Origin: an uncultured Alphaproteobacteria bacterium
Lineage (GTDB): Bacteria > Pseudomonadota > Alphaproteobacteria > HIMB59
Length of the DNA stretch: 62,412 nt
Assembly (NCBI GenBank): GCA_902526965.1
Contig: CABZMT010000006.1
Coordinates: forward strand, 1 to 62,412
Reading direction: 5' to 3'
Shown in pieces: positions 22,814 to 33,173 of this stretch. Numbering within the stretch: the first letter of the stretch is position 1; the number at the start of each line of letters is the position of its first letter. The notes beneath the pieces were generated by a model, which did not search any database, had not been told where the DNA came from, and was given only the letters and a program-made list of their open reading frames with translations. Made by a program: the position numbers and the translations under genes.

Positions 22814-23989
22814 TTATCTTTGAGCTACGTCTGTGAATTGACCGCCTTCAATTCCTTTTTCAAGGAATGCTCCAAATGCTTCTCCCACTTCTGTGAAGTT
22901 AACATCTGTTGCTCCGTCATAGTCAACTGCGAAACCTGCACAAGCAAGCTCAAGACCTTTACCTAGTTCACCGGCATAAATCTTTGTACCAGGACCATTA
23001 GCTACACTCATAATATTTGCAGCTACAGTTGCACTATCATCAGATCCACCTTTACACATTGCAAGCATTATTAATGCTGCAGCATCGTAAGACTCTCCAA
23101 CATAAACTGAAGGGTCAACACCATTTGCTTCGGCGTATGCTTTAAACTTCATAGCACCAGCGCCTAATGAACCGGGCATAGAGCCAAAAGATCCATCAAG
23201 ATCAGAACCAAAAGTATCTGTTAATGAAGCACCAATCATTCCATCAGAAAGCACAAATGTATCAAAAGCACCACTATCAAGTGATCCCTGTATAATTTGA
23301 TTTCCACCTTGGTCTAAATAACCAATAACAACTAATGCATCACCACCTGCAGATGAAAGAACACCTACCTCTGCACTATAGTCAGCTTTATCACCTTCGT
23401 GAGCAGTTTTCGCTGTAACTTCGATACCTCTTGCATTAGCGGCAGCTTCGTATACATCAGCTAAACCGACACCATAGTCGGTGTTAACATAAGTAATTGC
23501 AACACTTGTAATACCTCTGTCGTTAGTAATGTCTGCTAATACTTCTCCGCCTCTAGCATCAGAGGGAGCTGTTCTAAAAAATAGACCATTATCCTCTGCT
23601 GTAGTTAAAGCAGGTGAAGTCGCAGATGGTGAAATCATTGGTACACCATTAGGAACAGCTACGTTAGAAAGAACCGCACCTGTAACACCAGAACAGTCTG
23701 CTCCCATGATAGCTGTAACGCCTTGAGATATTAAAAATTCAGCCGCAGATGCAGCTGCTGCTGAGTCGATACATGTTGAGTCAGCTCTAATTGAGCTAAC
23801 TGTAGAACCACCTAGAAGTGCACCTGAGTCTGAAGCTTCGTTAAAAGCTAACTCAGCGCCTGCAGCCATACCTGGCGTTAATGATTCAATAGGTCCTGTA
23901 AAACCTAAAATAATGCCAACTTTAACTTCTTTAGCGTATGACGTGCTAAACATAAATAAAGCAAGCAGAGTTGTAATGAACTTAATCAT
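22814..23989 (-). CDS. Liv-type ABC transporter substrate-binding protein
   Basis: A 391-residue periplasmic binding protein. Residues 1-19 are a signal peptide ending around TSYAKE. The mature part starts VKVGIILGFTGPIESLTPGM and shows VAITYVNTDYGVGLADVYEAAA and YVGESYDAAALIMLAM, typical of the leucine-binding family (Peripla_BP_6). It faces the livGFHM genes convergently, so the pair are separate transcripts. The coding strand is visibly richer in G+C than its neighbours because the protein is rich in Ala, Gly, Asp and Val. That is usual for an abundant binding protein. The ligand is not deduced. Confidence 0.93.
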   Translation of the reverse strand: MIKFITTLLALFMFSTSYAKEVKVGIILGFTGPIESLTPGMAAGAELAFNEASDSGALLGGSTVSSIRADSTCIDSAAAASAAEFLISQGVTAIMGADCSGVTGAVLSNVAVPNGVPMISPSATSPALTTAEDNGLFFRTAPSDARGGEVLADITNDRGITSVAITYVNTDYGVGLADVYEAAANARGIEVTAKTAHEGDKADYSAEVGVLSSAGGDALVVIGYLDQGGNQIIQGSLDSGAFDTFVLSDGMIGASLTDTFGSDLDGSFGSMPGSLGAGAMKFKAYAEANGVDPSVYVGESYDAAALIMLAMCKGGSDDSATVAANIMSVANGPGTKIYAGELGKGLELACAGFAVDYDGATDVNFTEVGEAFGAFLEKGIEGGQFTDVAQR

Positions 23990-25087: not shown

Positions 25088-26015
25088 CGTTATTAACTAT
25101 TTTATTATCTTTTAAGAAATCAGCAACTTGGTTTGCTACATCAATAGCAACATTAGATTGTGCTTCTTTTGAGGAAGCACCTAAATGTGGAGTTAAAAGT
25201 AAATTTTTAGCTCCAAACATAACGTTATCTGTTGCAGGTTCATTTTCATAAACATCGATAGCTGCCCCAGCTATAACTCCATTGTTTAAAGCGTCTTTTA
25301 AATCCACTTCATTGATTAAACCACCTCTGGCACAATTTATAATAACTGATGTAGGTTTCATGGTAGAAAGGGTTTCTTTATTAAACATATATTTAGTTTC
25401 ATCGTTTAATTTTGTATGAATTGAAACAATATCAGCTTCCTTTATTAACTGCTCAGTTGAAACTTTATTTGCTTTAAATCTAGATAGATCTTCATCACTA
25501 GCTGATTTAGAGTTAGTAATAATGTTCATTCCAATTGTTGAGCATATTTCAGCAACTCTTTGACCAATATTACCATAACCAACTATTCCAAGTGTTTTTC
25601 CTTTTAATTCAGTTCCAATAAACTTAGGTTTTTCCCACTTTCCTTGATGAGTCGAGTCATTAGCTAAATGTATATTTCTCATAAGTGAAAACATTAATCC
25701 CACACTTAACTCTGCAGTTGCCTCAAGATTTCCTAAGGGAGTGTTCATTACTAAAATTTTATTTTTTGTTGCTTGATCGAGATCAACATTATCAACACCT
25801 ACCCCTGCTCTTCCTATAACTTTAAGGTTTTTGCAGTCAGCAAGTATATCAGACGTTAGTTTAGTGGCAGATCTGATTAAAATACCATCATATTGATCAA
25901 TTACTTCTTTGAGTTCCTCTGGAGACATTCCAATCTTTATATCGTATTTAATTTGTTTAGATTTAAGAACGTCTTCAACTTTATTACTCATTTTATCAGA
26001 AATTAAAATCTTCAT
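25074..26015 (-). CDS. serA: D-3-phosphoglycerate dehydrogenase (short form)
   Basis: A 313-residue D-isomer 2-hydroxyacid dehydrogenase. VIGRAGVGVDN, the NAD-binding GKTLGIVGYGNIGQRVA, NCARGGLINE (catalytic arginine) and LTPHLGASSKEA (catalytic histidine) are present. It lacks the C-terminal ACT and intervening domains of feedback-inhibited SerA. Its start overlaps the serC stop (TAATG on the minus strand), so the first two serine steps are cotranscribed. Other hydroxyacid dehydrogenase activities are possible, but the serC neighbour makes SerA most likely. Confidence 0.9.
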   Translation of the reverse strand: MKILISDKMSNKVEDVLKSKQIKYDIKIGMSPEELKEVIDQYDGILIRSATKLTSDILADCKNLKVIGRAGVGVDNVDLDQATKNKILVMNTPLGNLEATAELSVGLMFSLMRNIHLANDSTHQGKWEKPKFIGTELKGKTLGIVGYGNIGQRVAEICSTIGMNIITNSKSASDEDLSRFKANKVSTEQLIKEADIVSIHTKLNDETKYMFNKETLSTMKPTSVIINCARGGLINEVDLKDALNNGVIAGAAIDVYENEPATDNVMFGAKNLLLTPHLGASSKEAQSNVAIDVANQVADFLKDNKIVNNVNSF

Positions 26016-27175
26016 TATTTATACCTTTCCATTGTTTCAAAAAAGGACCACTCAATCCATGGTAAAACTTTTTCAATATCAGAGGCCTCTACGGTTGCGC
26101 CTCCCCAAATCCTTATACCAGCTGGTGCATCTTTATAAGCATTAATATCATAACCAGCATCTTCCCTCTCTAATGTAGAGCAAACCTCTTTTACTAATTT
26201 TTTTTGGTTGTCACTGTCTAAAGCAACAAAATCAGGATGTGTAAACTTAAAGCATATGCTTGTTGAAGAATAGGTATTTGGATCCACAGCCAAAAACTCA
26301 ACCCAATCCCTTTGTTCAATCCAATCTCTTATGACTTGAAGATTTTTTTTTGATCGTAAAATAAGCTCTTTTTGACCACCTATTTCGATACACCAATTCA
26401 AAGCATCTAAAGCATCCTCAGCAGCAAGTAAAGATGGTGTATTAATTGTAGCTCCCTCAAAGATATCTTTAGCAAATTTTTTATTTTTAGCTAATTGAAA
26501 AATTTTTGGCATTGGCCAGGAAGGCTCATAAGTCTCTAATCTTTCAACAGCTTTTGGAGATAAGGCAATCATTCCATGTGCAGCCTCTCCACCTAAAACT
26601 TTTTGCCAAGACCAAGTAACAACATCTAATTTTTTAAAATCCATATCCATTGCAAATACAGCAGATGTTGCATCACAAATGGATAGACCTTCTCTCTCGT
26701 CTGGTATCCAGTCGGCATTAGGTATACAAACACCTGAGGTTGTACCATTCCAAGTAAAAACAACATCGTTATTAAAATTTACTTTAGTCAAATCTGGAAG
26801 TTCCCCATAGTTATCAGTTTTATGAACAGTGACATTTTCTAGTTTTAACTGTTTTGTAATATCTTTAACCCAAGTCAATCCAAAGGTTTCCCAACCACAA
26901 ACTTCGACACCTTTTAATCCTAAAAGACTCCACATAGCCATTTCTATAGCCCCAGTATCTGAAGCAGGTACAATACCCACTAAATAATCATCAGGTAATT
27001 CGAGTACCTCTTTTGATTTAACTATAACTTCGTTTAATTTTGCTTTACCACTTTTAGCTCTATGGGATCTTCCTAATACCGCATCACTTAATGCATCTAA
27101 TTTCCAACCAGGTCTTTTAGAACAGGGTCCTGATGAAAAAAATGGATGATTTGGTTTAATAGTGGGTTTTTGCAT
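26015..27175 (-). CDS. serC: Phosphoserine aminotransferase
   Basis: A 386-residue class V aminotransferase of the alphaproteobacterial/archaeal SerC subtype. [16 protein letters not shown] opens the protein. [37 protein letters not shown] and the PLP lysine in [15 protein letters not shown] follow. It converts 3-phosphohydroxypyruvate and glutamate to phosphoserine. It heads serC-serA, 28 bases after the DUF1015 gene on the same strand. Confidence 0.95.
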
Positions 27176-27203: not shown

Positions 27204-28346
27204 TTATTCAATAATTTTATAAAAAAATAGCCCATCTAGTGGCTTTGGCTCAAACCAAGTAGCTTTGGGCGGCATAAATTTCAAATTTTTTGAAAAATCT
27301 ATAACTAAATCCATACTAACTGGTCTCATCAATGTTGATAGATCTGTTATACCTGTATCAACTTGATTAATCAAATAATCAGTCCCTAGTGTGGGTGGGA
27401 CGAATTCTACCCTTTCATCATTAGTTTCATCATAAATATTTAATATTTCTTTTAAAACAAACTCTCCAAAATCAATGCAATCTGCACCATTTGTAGAATA
27501 ATTAACTTTCAAATCGATTTTAAAAAATTTACCTTCGAAGTAGATTACAAAAAAACGGTCTATCTTCTCATGATAATTTAGCTCCTTAATATGAAAAAAT
27601 TTTTTTAAATCAGTCAAAAACGAATCTTTTTTATAATTTTTAGGGAACTTAATGCTTCTATTATAAGGCAAGTTTAAGCACTTAGATTTTGGGAAAACTA
27701 TTGATAAAAACTTAGTATCTTTATCTACATCTAATTGTGCAAAACCTTCAATTCTATGATGGCCATCTGCAACAAAAAGTTCCTTAAAATTTATACCACT
27801 AAAGTCAGTGTTAGTTTTATATATAGAGTGAGTATACTTACCTGATTTAAACTTTATAATTGGTTTTTTATCGTGATGGATATCAAGATTTAGATCAATA
27901 TTTTCATCATCGTAAAAAAGATAAATAGGGCTTAATTGGAATTTAACTTTAGATAATTGATCAGCTCTTTCTTTTCCTTTACTAACTAAAATCTTTTCGT
28001 GAGGCTTAATATTTCTATTAATATAATCTTGAATATTTAATAAGGAAATTAACCCCGTCTGAGAATGGTTTTCTGAATCAATCCTATATAAAAAATACTC
28101 TTTTTCTGATTTATAAATAATTTCTTCATCAATAAGTTTTTGATAGTATTTCTTTGATAAGTCAAAAAAATCTTCCTCAGAAAGATTTTTGTTAAAATAA
28201 ATATCAGGTCTTAATATTTGTAAAAGATTAAGTTTATGTACTTGTTCAGAGGTAAAGTTGTAATCAATTATATCTGTACTCGGTGATATGATTGATTGTA
28301 GATATTTATTGTTTAGTACATAAGTATTTGGTAATAATGGCTTCAT
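27204..28346 (-). CDS. DUF1015 family protein
   Basis: A 380-residue protein with the DUF1015 pattern: PLLPNTYVLN at the start, a central FVADGHHRIEGFAQ segment (histidines in a HH pair near an aspartate), and LGTDYLINQ and FMPPKATWFEPKPLDGLF at the end. The family is uncharacterised, widespread, and often adjacent to serine-biosynthesis genes as here (28 bases before serC). The HHR segment suggests a metal- or phosphate-binding site, which is inference. It is missing some standard spacing and appears slightly short. Confidence 0.8.
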   Translation of the reverse strand: MKPLLPNTYVLNNKYLQSIISPSTDIIDYNFTSEQVHKLNLLQILRPDIYFNKNLSEEDFFDLSKKYYQKLIDEEIIYKSEKEYFLYRIDSENHSQTGLISLLNIQDYINRNIKPHEKILVSKGKERADQLSKVKFQLSPIYLFYDDENIDLNLDIHHDKKPIIKFKSGKYTHSIYKTNTDFSGINFKELFVADGHHRIEGFAQLDVDKDTKFLSIVFPKSKCLNLPYNRSIKFPKNYKKDSFLTDLKKFFHIKELNYHEKIDRFFVIYFEGKFFKIDLKVNYSTNGADCIDFGEFVLKEILNIYDETNDERVEFVPPTLGTDYLINQVDTGITDLSTLMRPVSMDLVIDFSKNLKFMPPKATWFEPKPLDGLFFYKIIE

Positions 28347-28348
28347 TT

Positions 28349-28438
28349 ATGAATAAGAAAAAAATACCTTACTATTTTGCTTTAATGATTGCGTTGGTAT
28401 TCTTTTTTTATGGAATATTTTCAGTTTTAATACACTAA
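28349..28438 (+). CDS. Possible 29-residue single-pass membrane protein
   Basis: A short plus-strand ORF that fills the space between two minus-strand genes. The ATG (28349) lies 2 bases beyond the DUF1015 start codon and the TAA overlaps the stop of the next gene by 4 bases. The product has a basic N-terminus (MNKKKIPYY), a hydrophobic stretch of about 18 residues (FALMIALVFFFYGIFSVL) and a two-residue tail: an N-in single-span layout. No clear ribosome site is seen; an alternative ATG at 28337 would add four residues. It could be a chance ORF in AT-rich DNA. Confidence 0.4.
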   Translation: MNKKKIPYYFALMIALVFFFYGIFSVLIH

Positions 28439-28737
28439 TCTTCTTTATTTGTTGAATTAGGAAGGTTCTTCTCTTCATACCAAATTGATTTATCAGGAAT
28501 ATTTCCATCCCATAAATAACTTTCATAATCAAATTTAGGCATGCCCTTATCAGACCTTTCATAATAAAGTCCAAACTCTCTACAGTATTCTGATAGCTGG
28601 TCAGCTTCGATTTCTAATATATTTAATTTTTCCCATTTTTTAGATGATGCTACCCATTTAAAGCCTTTTGATTTAAGCCAATCTTTGTGGTAGTAAGTCT
28701 CAGAACCGGATACCGAGAATGTAATATTTTCACTCAT
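28435..28737 (-). CDS. Small hypothetical protein, weakly DUF5710-like
   Basis: A 100-residue protein. I chose the ATG at 28737, which has AGAGG 7 bases upstream, over the ATG at 28794 inside the Gfo/Idh gene. Residues 14-35 (YYHKDWLKSKGFKW then SSKKWEK) resemble the DUF5710-type pattern in which an acidic/lysine residue is followed by GxKW and KxW. The second half is acidic and aromatic without a known motif. No signal or membrane segment. Its start overlaps the Gfo/Idh gene end by 8 bases. Function unknown. Confidence 0.6.
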   Translation of the reverse strand: MSENITFSVSGSETYYHKDWLKSKGFKWVASSKKWEKLNILEIEADQLSEYCREFGLYYERSDKGMPKFDYESYLWDGNIPDKSIWYEEKNLPNSTNKED

Positions 28738-29560
28738 AAAGAACCTCTTGAAATAATTTGTACGGATAATATGTAAAAATAGATAAGTTTTCAAAAGAAT
28801 TCTTTGAATTTACAAAAGAATTTAGATCTTCAGAATTATAAAGGGTTTTATTTGTGTCAAATGACCCCTCTTTTGATTTAATTGCTGTGTCAGTATTAAA
28901 AACATCACTTTTTAACATAATTTTTATTTTTAATTGTTCATTTATGTCAATCTCACATTTTAAGCTGTTTATTTTATTTGTTATTTTATCAATACTTTTA
29001 TCCTTCACAAAAATTGTAATTTTTTGGTTACGGTACATGTAAATTAAGTAAAAGAGATCTGGGCACAGATCAAACAAAATATCTTTAGTATCTAAACTAT
29101 TTTTAAAATCATTAGAATACTGGAAATTTTTTACATAAGTAATTGCATTTTGATTAGTAGTTTCTTTATAAAGCTTTTTAAAATTTATTTCATTTATTAA
29201 AAAAAGATTATTTATTAATTTTGACTCGACTAATTTATTGAAATACACCAAGTCATTTGAACTACTAATAATTGGGTAATCAGTTATAACTTTGATATTA
29301 TTTTTCAAACAAAGATAAATATACTCAAACTTAATGCCCGAAGGTAAAAAATTTAAAATAAAATCTACTTCTTTGTCGTAAATAAGATCTTCATACGAGC
29401 CATAATATTTATTAAAATTGTGAGACTTACAAAATGCTTGAGCGGCATCAGTGTTTCTTGAACTATTTGCATAAAGGTTAAGTATGTTTGATAGTTTATT
29501 TTTTTTTATAAAGTCAATTGATTTTTGATCTGAGCTAAGTATAGCTAAATTGCTTTTCAT
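28730..29560 (-). CDS. Gfo/Idh/MocA-like Rossmann protein, divergent
   Basis: A 276-residue protein whose first 120 residues follow the NAD(P)-binding oxidoreductase layout: hydrophobic strand LAILSS, YANSSRNTDAAQAFCKSHN, YGSYEDLIYDKEVDFILNFLPS and a helix/strand ending ITDYPI where EKP usually stands. The family's G-x-G-x-x-G loop is not intact (SSDQKS), and the C-terminal half is low-complexity and short. It may be a degenerate oxidoreductase or an NAD-independent relative. The ATG start is 23 bases from the divergent gpt-like gene. Confidence 0.6.
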   Translation of the reverse strand: MKSNLAILSSDQKSIDFIKKNKLSNILNLYANSSRNTDAAQAFCKSHNFNKYYGSYEDLIYDKEVDFILNFLPSGIKFEYIYLCLKNNIKVITDYPIISSSNDLVYFNKLVESKLINNLFLINEINFKKLYKETTNQNAITYVKNFQYSNDFKNSLDTKDILFDLCPDLFYLIYMYRNQKITIFVKDKSIDKITNKINSLKCEIDINEQLKIKIMLKSDVFNTDTAIKSKEGSFDTNKTLYNSEDLNSFVNSKNSFENLSIFTYYPYKLFQEVLYE

Positions 29561-29583
29561 TTATTTTTTATTATAATCCATGG

Positions 29584-30009
29584 ATGAAACAGGTTTTTTT
29601 AAGCTATCACGATATACACACAGATTGTATAAAATTAGCAAAACTAATAAAAAAAAAATATAAACCCCAAAAACTTATTTTGATTTCTAGAGGTGGGCTC
29701 ATACCGGGCTCTATAATAGCCAATTATTTGGGGATACAGGATATTGATGTAATTGCTCTTAAAACCTATGCCGATAGGAAAAAAAATTCAAATATAAAAA
29801 TCTTTAAAAGAATAAAATCAGAAAAAAAGTTAGTTGTTATTGACGACTTAGTGGATAGCGGCGATACAGCTAAAATAGTTAAGGAAATGATGCCTAATTC
29901 AAAGTTTGTAGTTTTATATGCAAAAACCTCTGGAAAAAAGCAAGCCGATCTTCATCTATATGATTTTAGGGACAAAGACTGGCTTGTTTTTCCTTGGGAA
30001 CAGGATTAA
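29584..30009 (+). CDS. gpt: Purine phosphoribosyltransferase (Gpt/xanthine type)
   Basis: A 141-residue type I phosphoribosyltransferase. ILISRGGLIPG is the pyrophosphate loop and LVVIDDLVDSGDT (residues 83-95) is the PRPP-binding motif. Short length and the tail DWLVFPWEQ match xanthine/guanine phosphoribosyltransferases (Gpt). It would convert imported guanine or xanthine to GMP/XMP with PRPP. Its stop lies 20 bases from the convergent BMP-type nucleoside-binding protein gene, so salvage enzyme and transporter are neighbours. A tRNA-Pro-like promoter was not seen upstream. Confidence 0.85.
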   Translation: MKQVFLSYHDIHTDCIKLAKLIKKKYKPQKLILISRGGLIPGSIIANYLGIQDIDVIALKTYADRKKNSNIKIFKRIKSEKKLVVIDDLVDSGDTAKIVKEMMPNSKFVVLYAKTSGKKQADLHLYDFRDKDWLVFPWEQD

Positions 30010-31254: not shown

Positions 31255-32124
31255 CTATTGATTTTTTTCAAAAGGTATATTTAAAGAAGCTGGGGCACTC
31301 AACTTAAGTCTTAATTTATTGGATGAGATAAAAACTAATACTATAATTGTTGCTAAATATGGCATCATATTAAAAAATTGTCCCGGTAATTTAACACCAA
31401 TAGCTTGAAGGTTCATTTGCATTATAGCTACTCCACCAAAAATATAGGCACCAACTAAAAGCCTCCAAGGTTTCCAAGTAGCAAAAACTACCAGAGCTAA
31501 AGCTATCCATCCTCTTCCAGCTGTCATTCCCTCTTGCCACATAGGTGCGTAACAAATAGAAATATAGAAACCTGCAAGAGAGCTCATTACTCCTCCAAAT
31601 ATGATAGTCATGTATCTAGTTTTTATGACATTATAACCAAGAGCATAGGCAGAATTATGGTTTTCTCCAACTGCTCTGACAATCAGACCCGGTTTAGTTT
31701 TAGATAAAAAATAACTCGCCATAAATACTAATAAGAACGAAATAACTATGAAGTAATATGGGTTTAATCCCTCAATAGGAGTTCCGCTAAATTTTTTTCC
31801 AAGCATTGCACTTAAACCGATACCAAATATTGTTAAGGCAAGACCAGTTGCTATCTGATTAGTCATCAAATTTAGAACCAGAAAGGCAAATATACCTGAA
31901 AGAATAACTCCAGATATAATAGAAAAAAATAAAGAATAAAAATAATTACCCGTTAAAACTAAAGTTATAAAACCTGTAACGGCGCCTACTAACATTAAGC
32001 CTTCAAGTCCAAGATTAAGAACTCCACTTTTTTCAGTGACTAATTCACCAATACCAGCAAATACTAGAGGTGTAGTTGATATTAAAACTATATTAAAAAT
32101 ACCAATAACAAGCTCTATATTCAT
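31255..32124 (-). CDS. Nucleoside ABC transporter permease (second permease)
   Basis: A 289-residue membrane protein of the BPD_transp_2 family used by BMP-type transporters. TPLVFAGIGELVTEKSGVLNLGLEGLMLVGA is the N-terminal hallmark (in segments), and GRGWIALALVVFATW and the late EGMTAG region mark this permease of the pair (NupQ/YufQ type). It pairs with the preceding permease, whose stop overlaps its ATG by 4 bases. The operon is ATPase, permease, permease, then the separately promoted binding protein. Confidence 0.9.
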   Translation of the reverse strand: MNIELVIGIFNIVLISTTPLVFAGIGELVTEKSGVLNLGLEGLMLVGAVTGFITLVLTGNYFYSLFFSIISGVILSGIFAFLVLNLMTNQIATGLALTIFGIGLSAMLGKKFSGTPIEGLNPYYFIVISFLLVFMASYFLSKTKPGLIVRAVGENHNSAYALGYNVIKTRYMTIIFGGVMSSLAGFYISICYAPMWQEGMTAGRGWIALALVVFATWKPWRLLVGAYIFGGVAIMQMNLQAIGVKLPGQFFNMMPYLATIIVLVFISSNKLRLKLSAPASLNIPFEKNQ

Positions 32125-33173
32125 GATACAGAAACTTTATATTTGTTAAGAAAGTCAGTGCCTAATAAAAAAAATAAAACTAAGCCCTGAAAAACAAATC
32201 CCACGGCTGAGGGTATTTTTAAAAATAGTTGGGCATCTTCAGCACCCAAATAAGTTAAAGCGATCAATAATGATGATAAAATTATTCCAAGAGGATTTAA
32301 TCTTCCCAAAAAAGCAACAATAATTGCAGTAAAACCATAGTTCGGAGAAATATCTCTGTATAACAATCCTATTGGTCCAGAGACTTCAAATAACCCAGCT
32401 AATCCTGAGCAGGCACCACTAATTATGAAAGTATAAAAAATTAAATTTTTATATTTAAAACCTGCATATTGAGATGCTTTTGAACTGAAGCCAGAAACTC
32501 TTAATTTAAAGCCAAATAAAGTTTTGTTATAAACAATGTATGAGATGAAACAAATTATTATAGCAAAATACACACCAATGTGAATTCGAAGGCCATCAAA
32601 TAACACCGGTAGTCTTCCAGCGTCTGGGAACGGCATTGATTTTGGGAGACCATATCCAGCTGGGTCTTTCCAGGGACCAACAACAAAATAATCGAGTATA
32701 AATAGTGCAACATAAGTCAGCATTAAACTAGTTAAAATCTCATTAGTATTAAATTTTGTTTTTAAAAGAGCTGGTATCGTAGCCCAAAAAGCACCTCCGA
32801 TAGCTCCAAATAAAATCATTAAAGGAAGTAAGAAAATACTTGTAGATTCATTAAATAATAGACCTATACCTCCTCCAAAGATAGCACCCATTGTTAACTG
32901 CCCTTCAGCTCCAATATTGTAAATATTATTTTTAAAGCAATATGATAAGCCAAGTGCGATGATAGCTAGTGGAGTAGCTTTAACAAATAATTCTGAGATA
33001 CCGTAAGAATTTGAAATTGGGCTAATAAAAAAGATTTTAAAAGATTCGATTGGACTTAAATCTAATATCAAAAAAATAAATGAGCCAAAAAATAGTGTTA
33101 AAAGAACTGCTACTAATGGGGATAAATAAAATATTAGATTAGAATAATCCTCTCTTAATTTAATGTTAATCAA
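32121..33173 (-). CDS. Nucleoside ABC transporter permease (first permease)
   Basis: A 350-residue permease (NupP/YufP type) with about eight to ten membrane spans. The segments NIYNIGAEGQLTMGAIFGG and FKAKFNTNEILTSLML-like KTKFNTNEILTSLMLTY are family-typical. The start appears to be TTG at 33173, 8 bases inside the end of the ATPase gene, since no ATG occurs before the first membrane segment. It works with the second permease and the ATPase to import nucleosides. Confidence 0.88.
   Translation of the reverse strand: MINIKLREDYSNLIFYLSPLVAVLLTLFFGSFIFLILDLSPIESFKIFFISPISNSYGISELFVKATPLAIIALGLSYCFKNNIYNIGAEGQLTMGAIFGGGIGLLFNESTSIFLLPLMILFGAIGGAFWATIPALLKTKFNTNEILTSLMLTYVALFILDYFVVGPWKDPAGYGLPKSMPFPDAGRLPVLFDGLRIHIGVYFAIIICFISYIVYNKTLFGFKLRVSGFSSKASQYAGFKYKNLIFYTFIISGACSGLAGLFEVSGPIGLLYRDISPNYGFTAIIVAFLGRLNPLGIILSSLLIALTYLGAEDAQLFLKIPSAVGFVFQGLVLFFLLGTDFLNKYKVSVS

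Follow-up and report, generated by a model that had tools for sequence, protein, structure and literature searches.

Evidence for a selected 29-codon gene, predicted to encode a one-helix membrane protein, in one genus of HIMB59 Alphaproteobacteria

A 29-codon open reading frame between two minus-strand genes

The HIMB59/AEGEAN-169 group consists of common ocean bacteria, and standard annotation often overlooks very small genes. Here, we describe a 29-codon open reading frame (ORF) at positions 28349-28438 of a 62,412-nucleotide stretch of DNA (the window; contig CABZMT010000006.1) from an uncultured HIMB59 bacterium, whose assembly (GCA_902526965.1) comprises 45 contigs and 1.09 Mb and is 79% complete. 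The ORF lies on the plus strand, runs from ATG through 29 codons to TAA, and has the product MNKKKIPYYFALMIALVFFFYGIFSVLIH. Its two neighbours are encoded on the minus strand. The divergent gene for a DUF1015 protein (27204-28346; PF06245, E 3.6e-38) has its start codon at 28344-28346, which leaves 2 bases between the two starts, and the convergent gene for a conserved 100-residue protein (28435-28737) ends at 28435 and thus overlaps the ORF by 4 bases. An earlier note on this DNA had described exactly this packing, on the strand opposite to both neighbours, and had attributed to the product a basic N-terminus and a single hydrophobic span. The coordinates bear out the arrangement, the N-terminus carries the basic motif NKKK, and the highest 19-residue Kyte-Doolittle mean is 2.65, over residues 10-28; the assignment of a membrane helix was made by Kyte-Doolittle hydropathy alone.

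Longer in-frame starts exist, namely an ATG at 28337, four codons upstream (33 residues), and a TTG at 28292 (48 residues). The ATG at 28349 is the start common to all 37 orthologues described below, and, as read by eye, the upstream ATG of the two most divergent ones (L068 and L069) is in another frame than the ORF, one that immediately runs into a stop codon. Shine-Dalgarno-like motifs are scarce locally (3 of 21 neighbouring genes), so that the missing motif at the 29-codon ORF says little.

Conservation within the genus

The genus set consisted of 52 genomes, 37 of which (window included) carry an orthologue with an E value of at most 2.4e-5. These are exactly the 37 genomes in which the DUF1015 match extends to the first residue, and the orthologue was found at the same place in every genus genome with a contig spanning the site (37 of 37). 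As for the remaining 15 genomes, the contig stops short of the site in four (G008, G018, G020 and G023), and the other 11, with assemblies 63-86% complete, lack serC and DUF1015 as well as any strong match to the 100-residue gene. All 15 genomes without the ORF therefore lack the assembled site, meaning that no loss was seen wherever the site is visible.

All 37 orthologues start with ATG; 36 of them have 29 codons and one has 28 (G002, left out of the counts over 36 sequences), and the gap to the DUF1015 start measures 2 bases, except in two orthologues where it measures 4. In-frame stop codons occur in none of the 36, so that the search for the same ORF in relatives, which the earlier note had suggested with an eye to stops and frameshifts, came out in favour of a gene. 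By comparison, 11 control ATG-initiated ORFs nearby (22-71 residues) stayed intact in between 0 and 14 of the 29 relatives, against 29 of 29 for the 29-codon ORF, which was here scored from the upstream ATG (33 residues) over 29 of the 31 loci, two being too short. Moreover, neutral simulations at two rates left on average 16% or 5% of the leaves intact, and all 35 leaves were intact in 0 of 200 simulations at each rate.

Purifying selection on the encoded protein

Substitutions were counted over 35 genomes on the DUF1015 tree; G002 and G009 were excluded, as the length of their DUF1015 gene differs, but both were kept in the table of residues. Changes at the first, second and third codon positions numbered 47, 14 and 100, respectively, and the total comprised 90 synonymous and 71 nonsynonymous changes. 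With 0.25 as the synonymous fraction expected under neutrality, this corresponds to a binomial P of approximately 9e-17 and an omega of approximately 0.26, with changes treated as independent, and the mean pairwise ratio of nonsynonymous to synonymous differences (pN/pS) was 0.22. The synonymous/nonsynonymous comparison that had been proposed as a check of the ORF thus revealed a low nonsynonymous rate.

It could be argued that the open frame is not a gene at all, but a by-product of a frame on the opposite strand or of a regulatory DNA site. Indeed, frame -2 is the sole other frame that is mostly free of stops (open in 29 of 36 orthologues), and the DNA immediately upstream is under strong constraint. 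However, the 100 of 161 changes that fall at third positions of the plus frame fall at second positions of frame -2, which itself shows 22 synonymous to 137 nonsynonymous changes, and the minus-strand ORF, taken from its ATG, is intact in only 14 of 29 relatives. We therefore regard the by-product explanation as highly improbable. Altogether, conservation, selection, control ORFs and simulations back the suggestion of the earlier note that a real small membrane protein may be encoded here: the status of the 29-codon ORF as a protein-coding gene is well supported, and the gene is very likely real. The case shows that a streamlined ocean genome, even where it is packed very tightly, has room for a selected 29-codon gene, whose control DNA probably overlaps another gene.

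Distribution outside the genus

In an order-wide search of 162 genomes, strong matches came from those same 37 genus genomes only, and the eight matches in the sister family were all weak (E 0.0159 or worse). A sample of the class (289 genomes) gave 25 matches at E 0.1 or better, three of them from this genus (E 2.9e-18 or better); the other 22 were weak, the best one (9.3e-5) lying in a longer frame, as most of them did, and the six that were read were not orthologues. Within the sister family, 91 genomes have a DUF1015 match, and in the 14 of them that were read no similar ORF was found among ATG-initiated ORFs of at least 20 residues. In these 14 genomes the place upstream of DUF1015 is taken by one long gene of 453-458 residues, which we take to be TrpB-like. 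Among viral contigs, five stretches fit a pattern and none was confirmed. As far as searched, the family was found in one genus and appears to be genus-specific. The genus-specific small-protein families of GMSC, the global smORF catalogue, are among the closest known systems (PMC11364881).

Searches against known families gave no assignment. The 29-residue protein had no match in Pfam and NCBIfam up to E 1 and none in PHROGs, and Pfam queried with 14 members returned only sub-threshold hits to RELT (5 of 14), DUF2754 (one) and DltX (one), with a best E of 0.094. A single-sequence query of the PDB found nothing, and the 18 sequences of subunit 1 of ba3-type cytochrome c oxidase returned by a profile query (E of approximately 6) were taken as chance matches. 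In the openly licensed literature, we found no paper in which 'HIMB59' occurs together with 'small protein', and none that combines 'AEGEAN-169' and 'small open reading frame'.

The product could also be thought of as the hydrophobic toxin in a type I toxin-antitoxin pair, as the size and hydrophobicity fit examples such as TisB and Ibs, and the ORF lies antisense inside a run of minus-strand genes. Nevertheless, a single strong match per genome, the constant position and the purifying selection across 37 genomes speak against a toxin, as does the finding that positions 28000-28800 contain no above-threshold Rfam match, although antitoxin RNAs outside Rfam were not looked for. We thus consider this explanation very unlikely. 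A CRISPR-repeat match in Rfam was below threshold (23.9 vs 45 bits) and was taken as chance.

A possible promoter within the first DUF1015 codons

The first codons of the DUF1015 gene are unusually constant. Codons 3-8 (28323-28340) show no third-position change in 35 genomes, when the mean of the gene is 3.55 per site and codon 2 alone has 4. Among 21 neighbouring genes whose 5' ends we compared, using 16 to 20 sequences per gene and setting G009 aside, DUF1015 ranked lowest in third-position change at the 5' end relative to the whole gene (ratio 0.39, followed by 0.43 and 0.45). Summed over codons 3-9, it had one third-position change, compared with 7 to 35 in the 20 other genes, and its longest run of unchanged codons was 6, the next being 4.

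Read on the plus strand, this segment includes a possible -10 element, TAATAAT (28332-28338), preceded at a spacing of 17 bases by a possible -35 element, TTGTTT (28309-28314, within DUF1015 codons 11-13), the latter picked out by eye, and the ATG of the ORF follows 10 bases past TAATAAT. Across the 37 orthologues, again by eye, TTGTTT or TTGTTA is present in 36, TAATAAT in 34 and TATTAAT in 3. A stricter pattern that spans the elements and the ATG had a single occurrence, located at this site, in 5 of 6 genus genomes; none of 3 sister-family genomes contained it. The small gene probably has a promoter of its own inside the first DUF1015 codons, which would give a message with almost no leader. 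If the promoter is real, transcription would begin only a few bases from 28349, past the ATG at 28337, and the 29-residue form would be favoured.

Several results weigh against this proposal. A consensus promoter scan missed the element and found 2 sites, compared with 3.8 expected by chance. Furthermore, when the 364 15-codon windows of DUF1015 are compared, 6 of them, counting codons 2-16 themselves, are at or below the third-position mean of codons 2-16, and the lowest eight windows include some starting at approximately codons 319-323. The frozen 5' codons may also reflect the translation start of DUF1015 itself. A more elaborate proposal, which we put forward only tentatively and would sooner doubt than accept, is that a promoter in the first 16 DUF1015 codons sets the short-leader message of the microprotein and the DUF1015-serC-serA transcript in opposition, such that a lineage-specific membrane regulator would be set against the operon by transcription interference.

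Other 5' ends in the window resemble this one. The adjoining divergent pair of genes (28730-29560, minus strand, and 29584-30009, plus strand; 23 bases apart) shows similar, weaker constraint, with ratios of 0.62 and 0.45, and the gap between them (29561-29583) contains the self-reverse-complementary ATTATAAT, placed like a two-way -10 box with very short leaders. Third-position change is also scarce at the 5' end of the minus-strand gene at 22814-23989 (ratio 0.43), which presumably encodes a branched-chain amino acid binding protein and has no divergent neighbour among ORFs of at least 90 residues.

Conserved residues and possible roles of the protein

Seven residues are invariant in the 37 orthologues (M1, P7, Y8, A11, A15, Y21 and S25) and five more are kept in 36 of them (K5, with one gap, Y9, F18, G22 and H29), while amino-acid changes are concentrated at residues 2-4, 6, 10, 13 and 14. 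The conservation moment around the helix had permutation P values from 0.0065 to 0.034 (three residue ranges, two angles), and the best-conserved face (residues 6-29, 100 degrees) consists of Y8, A11, L12, A15, F19, G22, V26 and H29. A single packing face on the helix is only moderately supported.

The explanation that we prefer, to which we give about an even chance, is that the ORF is a selected and translated gene with its own embedded promoter, encoding a member of a family of inner-membrane proteins that are 28-29 residues long and specific to the genus, and that one face of the protein packs on a larger membrane protein. The protein would form one transmembrane helix, with the lysine-bearing N-terminus in the cytoplasm, as the positive-inside rule would predict, and the conserved C-terminal His at the outer edge. 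The conserved face would pack against a helix of the bigger protein, and the packing would stabilise or tune this partner, as with other one-helix microproteins. KdpF, CydX, CydH, TorE/NapE and AcrZ are such one-helix partner proteins, and share size class and helix with the 29-residue protein; they differ in having a known partner complex. The 37 orthologues, with their clear conservation pattern, constitute a resource for finding the partner.

Other observations fit less well with a packing helix. The invariant P7 and Y21 lie off the conserved face and S25 at its edge, and a test of the best of seven heptad registers was not significant (P 0.097). In addition, the immediate neighbours of the ORF look soluble, and genes that we take to encode permeases of ATP-binding cassette transporters are at least 2.8 kb away (31255-32891). 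Moreover, a helix of 29 residues can also act alone.

The last point leads to the main rival, in which the protein, alone or in homo-oligomers, would reduce membrane potential or alter the order of the membrane in starvation. YohP from E. coli (27 residues) lowers membrane potential and initiates a state of metabolic silencing (PMC12719787). The two proteins are alike in length class and in their single membrane helix, and the small residues A11, A15, G22 and S25, invariant or nearly so, would also suit self-association. However, the conserved Tyr and His may argue for a specific contact, and YohP is kept in most gammaproteobacteria, with homologues beyond, whereas the present family was found in one genus. 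Overall, we regard a YohP-like action as rather unlikely.

A partner could also be sought among respiratory complexes, since oxidases typically have small subunits with one helix, and an accessory subunit of, e.g., a heme-copper oxidase would be a special case of the packing helix that we prefer. Subunit I of heme-copper oxidase was found in 3 of the 5 genus genomes searched (6 of 9 overall), and COX4_pro_2 reached the cut-off in 0 of 9, so that its place could be free, although this search was weak (1 of 14 controls over the cut-off). Neither the 29-residue protein nor the 14 members matched the family profile of aa3 oxidase subunit IV (PF07835). Still, the ORF is not adjacent to oxidase genes, and heme-copper oxidase was also found in 3 of 4 genomes of the sister family, a family that yielded no such ORF. 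We regard such a role as unlikely. A CydX- or CydH-like subunit of cytochrome bd is unlikely too, PF01654 being found in 0 of 9 genomes (5 of this genus) vs 10 of 14 controls. Words such as cytochrome and oxidase are absent from the text of the AEGEAN-169 paper PMC10308909.

Neighbouring genes

Gene order was unchanged across the 35 loci examined, except for genes cut by contig ends and a phosphoribosyltransferase not found in one locus. Downstream of DUF1015 lies a gene (26015-27175, minus strand) that we take to encode a SerC-like aminotransferase, a name given from its sequence without a family search. In G007 (C1:717767-718920), the serC match consists of two pieces with stop codons; in the other 40 serC-bearing genomes it is a single piece with no stops.

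The 100-residue neighbour is itself highly conserved. Its residues 7-61 resemble part of a glycyl-tRNA-synthetase-like protein of 449-460 residues encoded elsewhere in the genome (31-37% identity, E 2e-5 to 1e-3), and a 101-residue form matched the NCBIfam glycine--tRNA ligase at E 0.013; perhaps, then, the neighbour is a stand-alone copy of a synthetase insert. At one locus (L127; G019:C10:10790-11090), the gene is broken across two frames, by either a frameshift or an assembly error.
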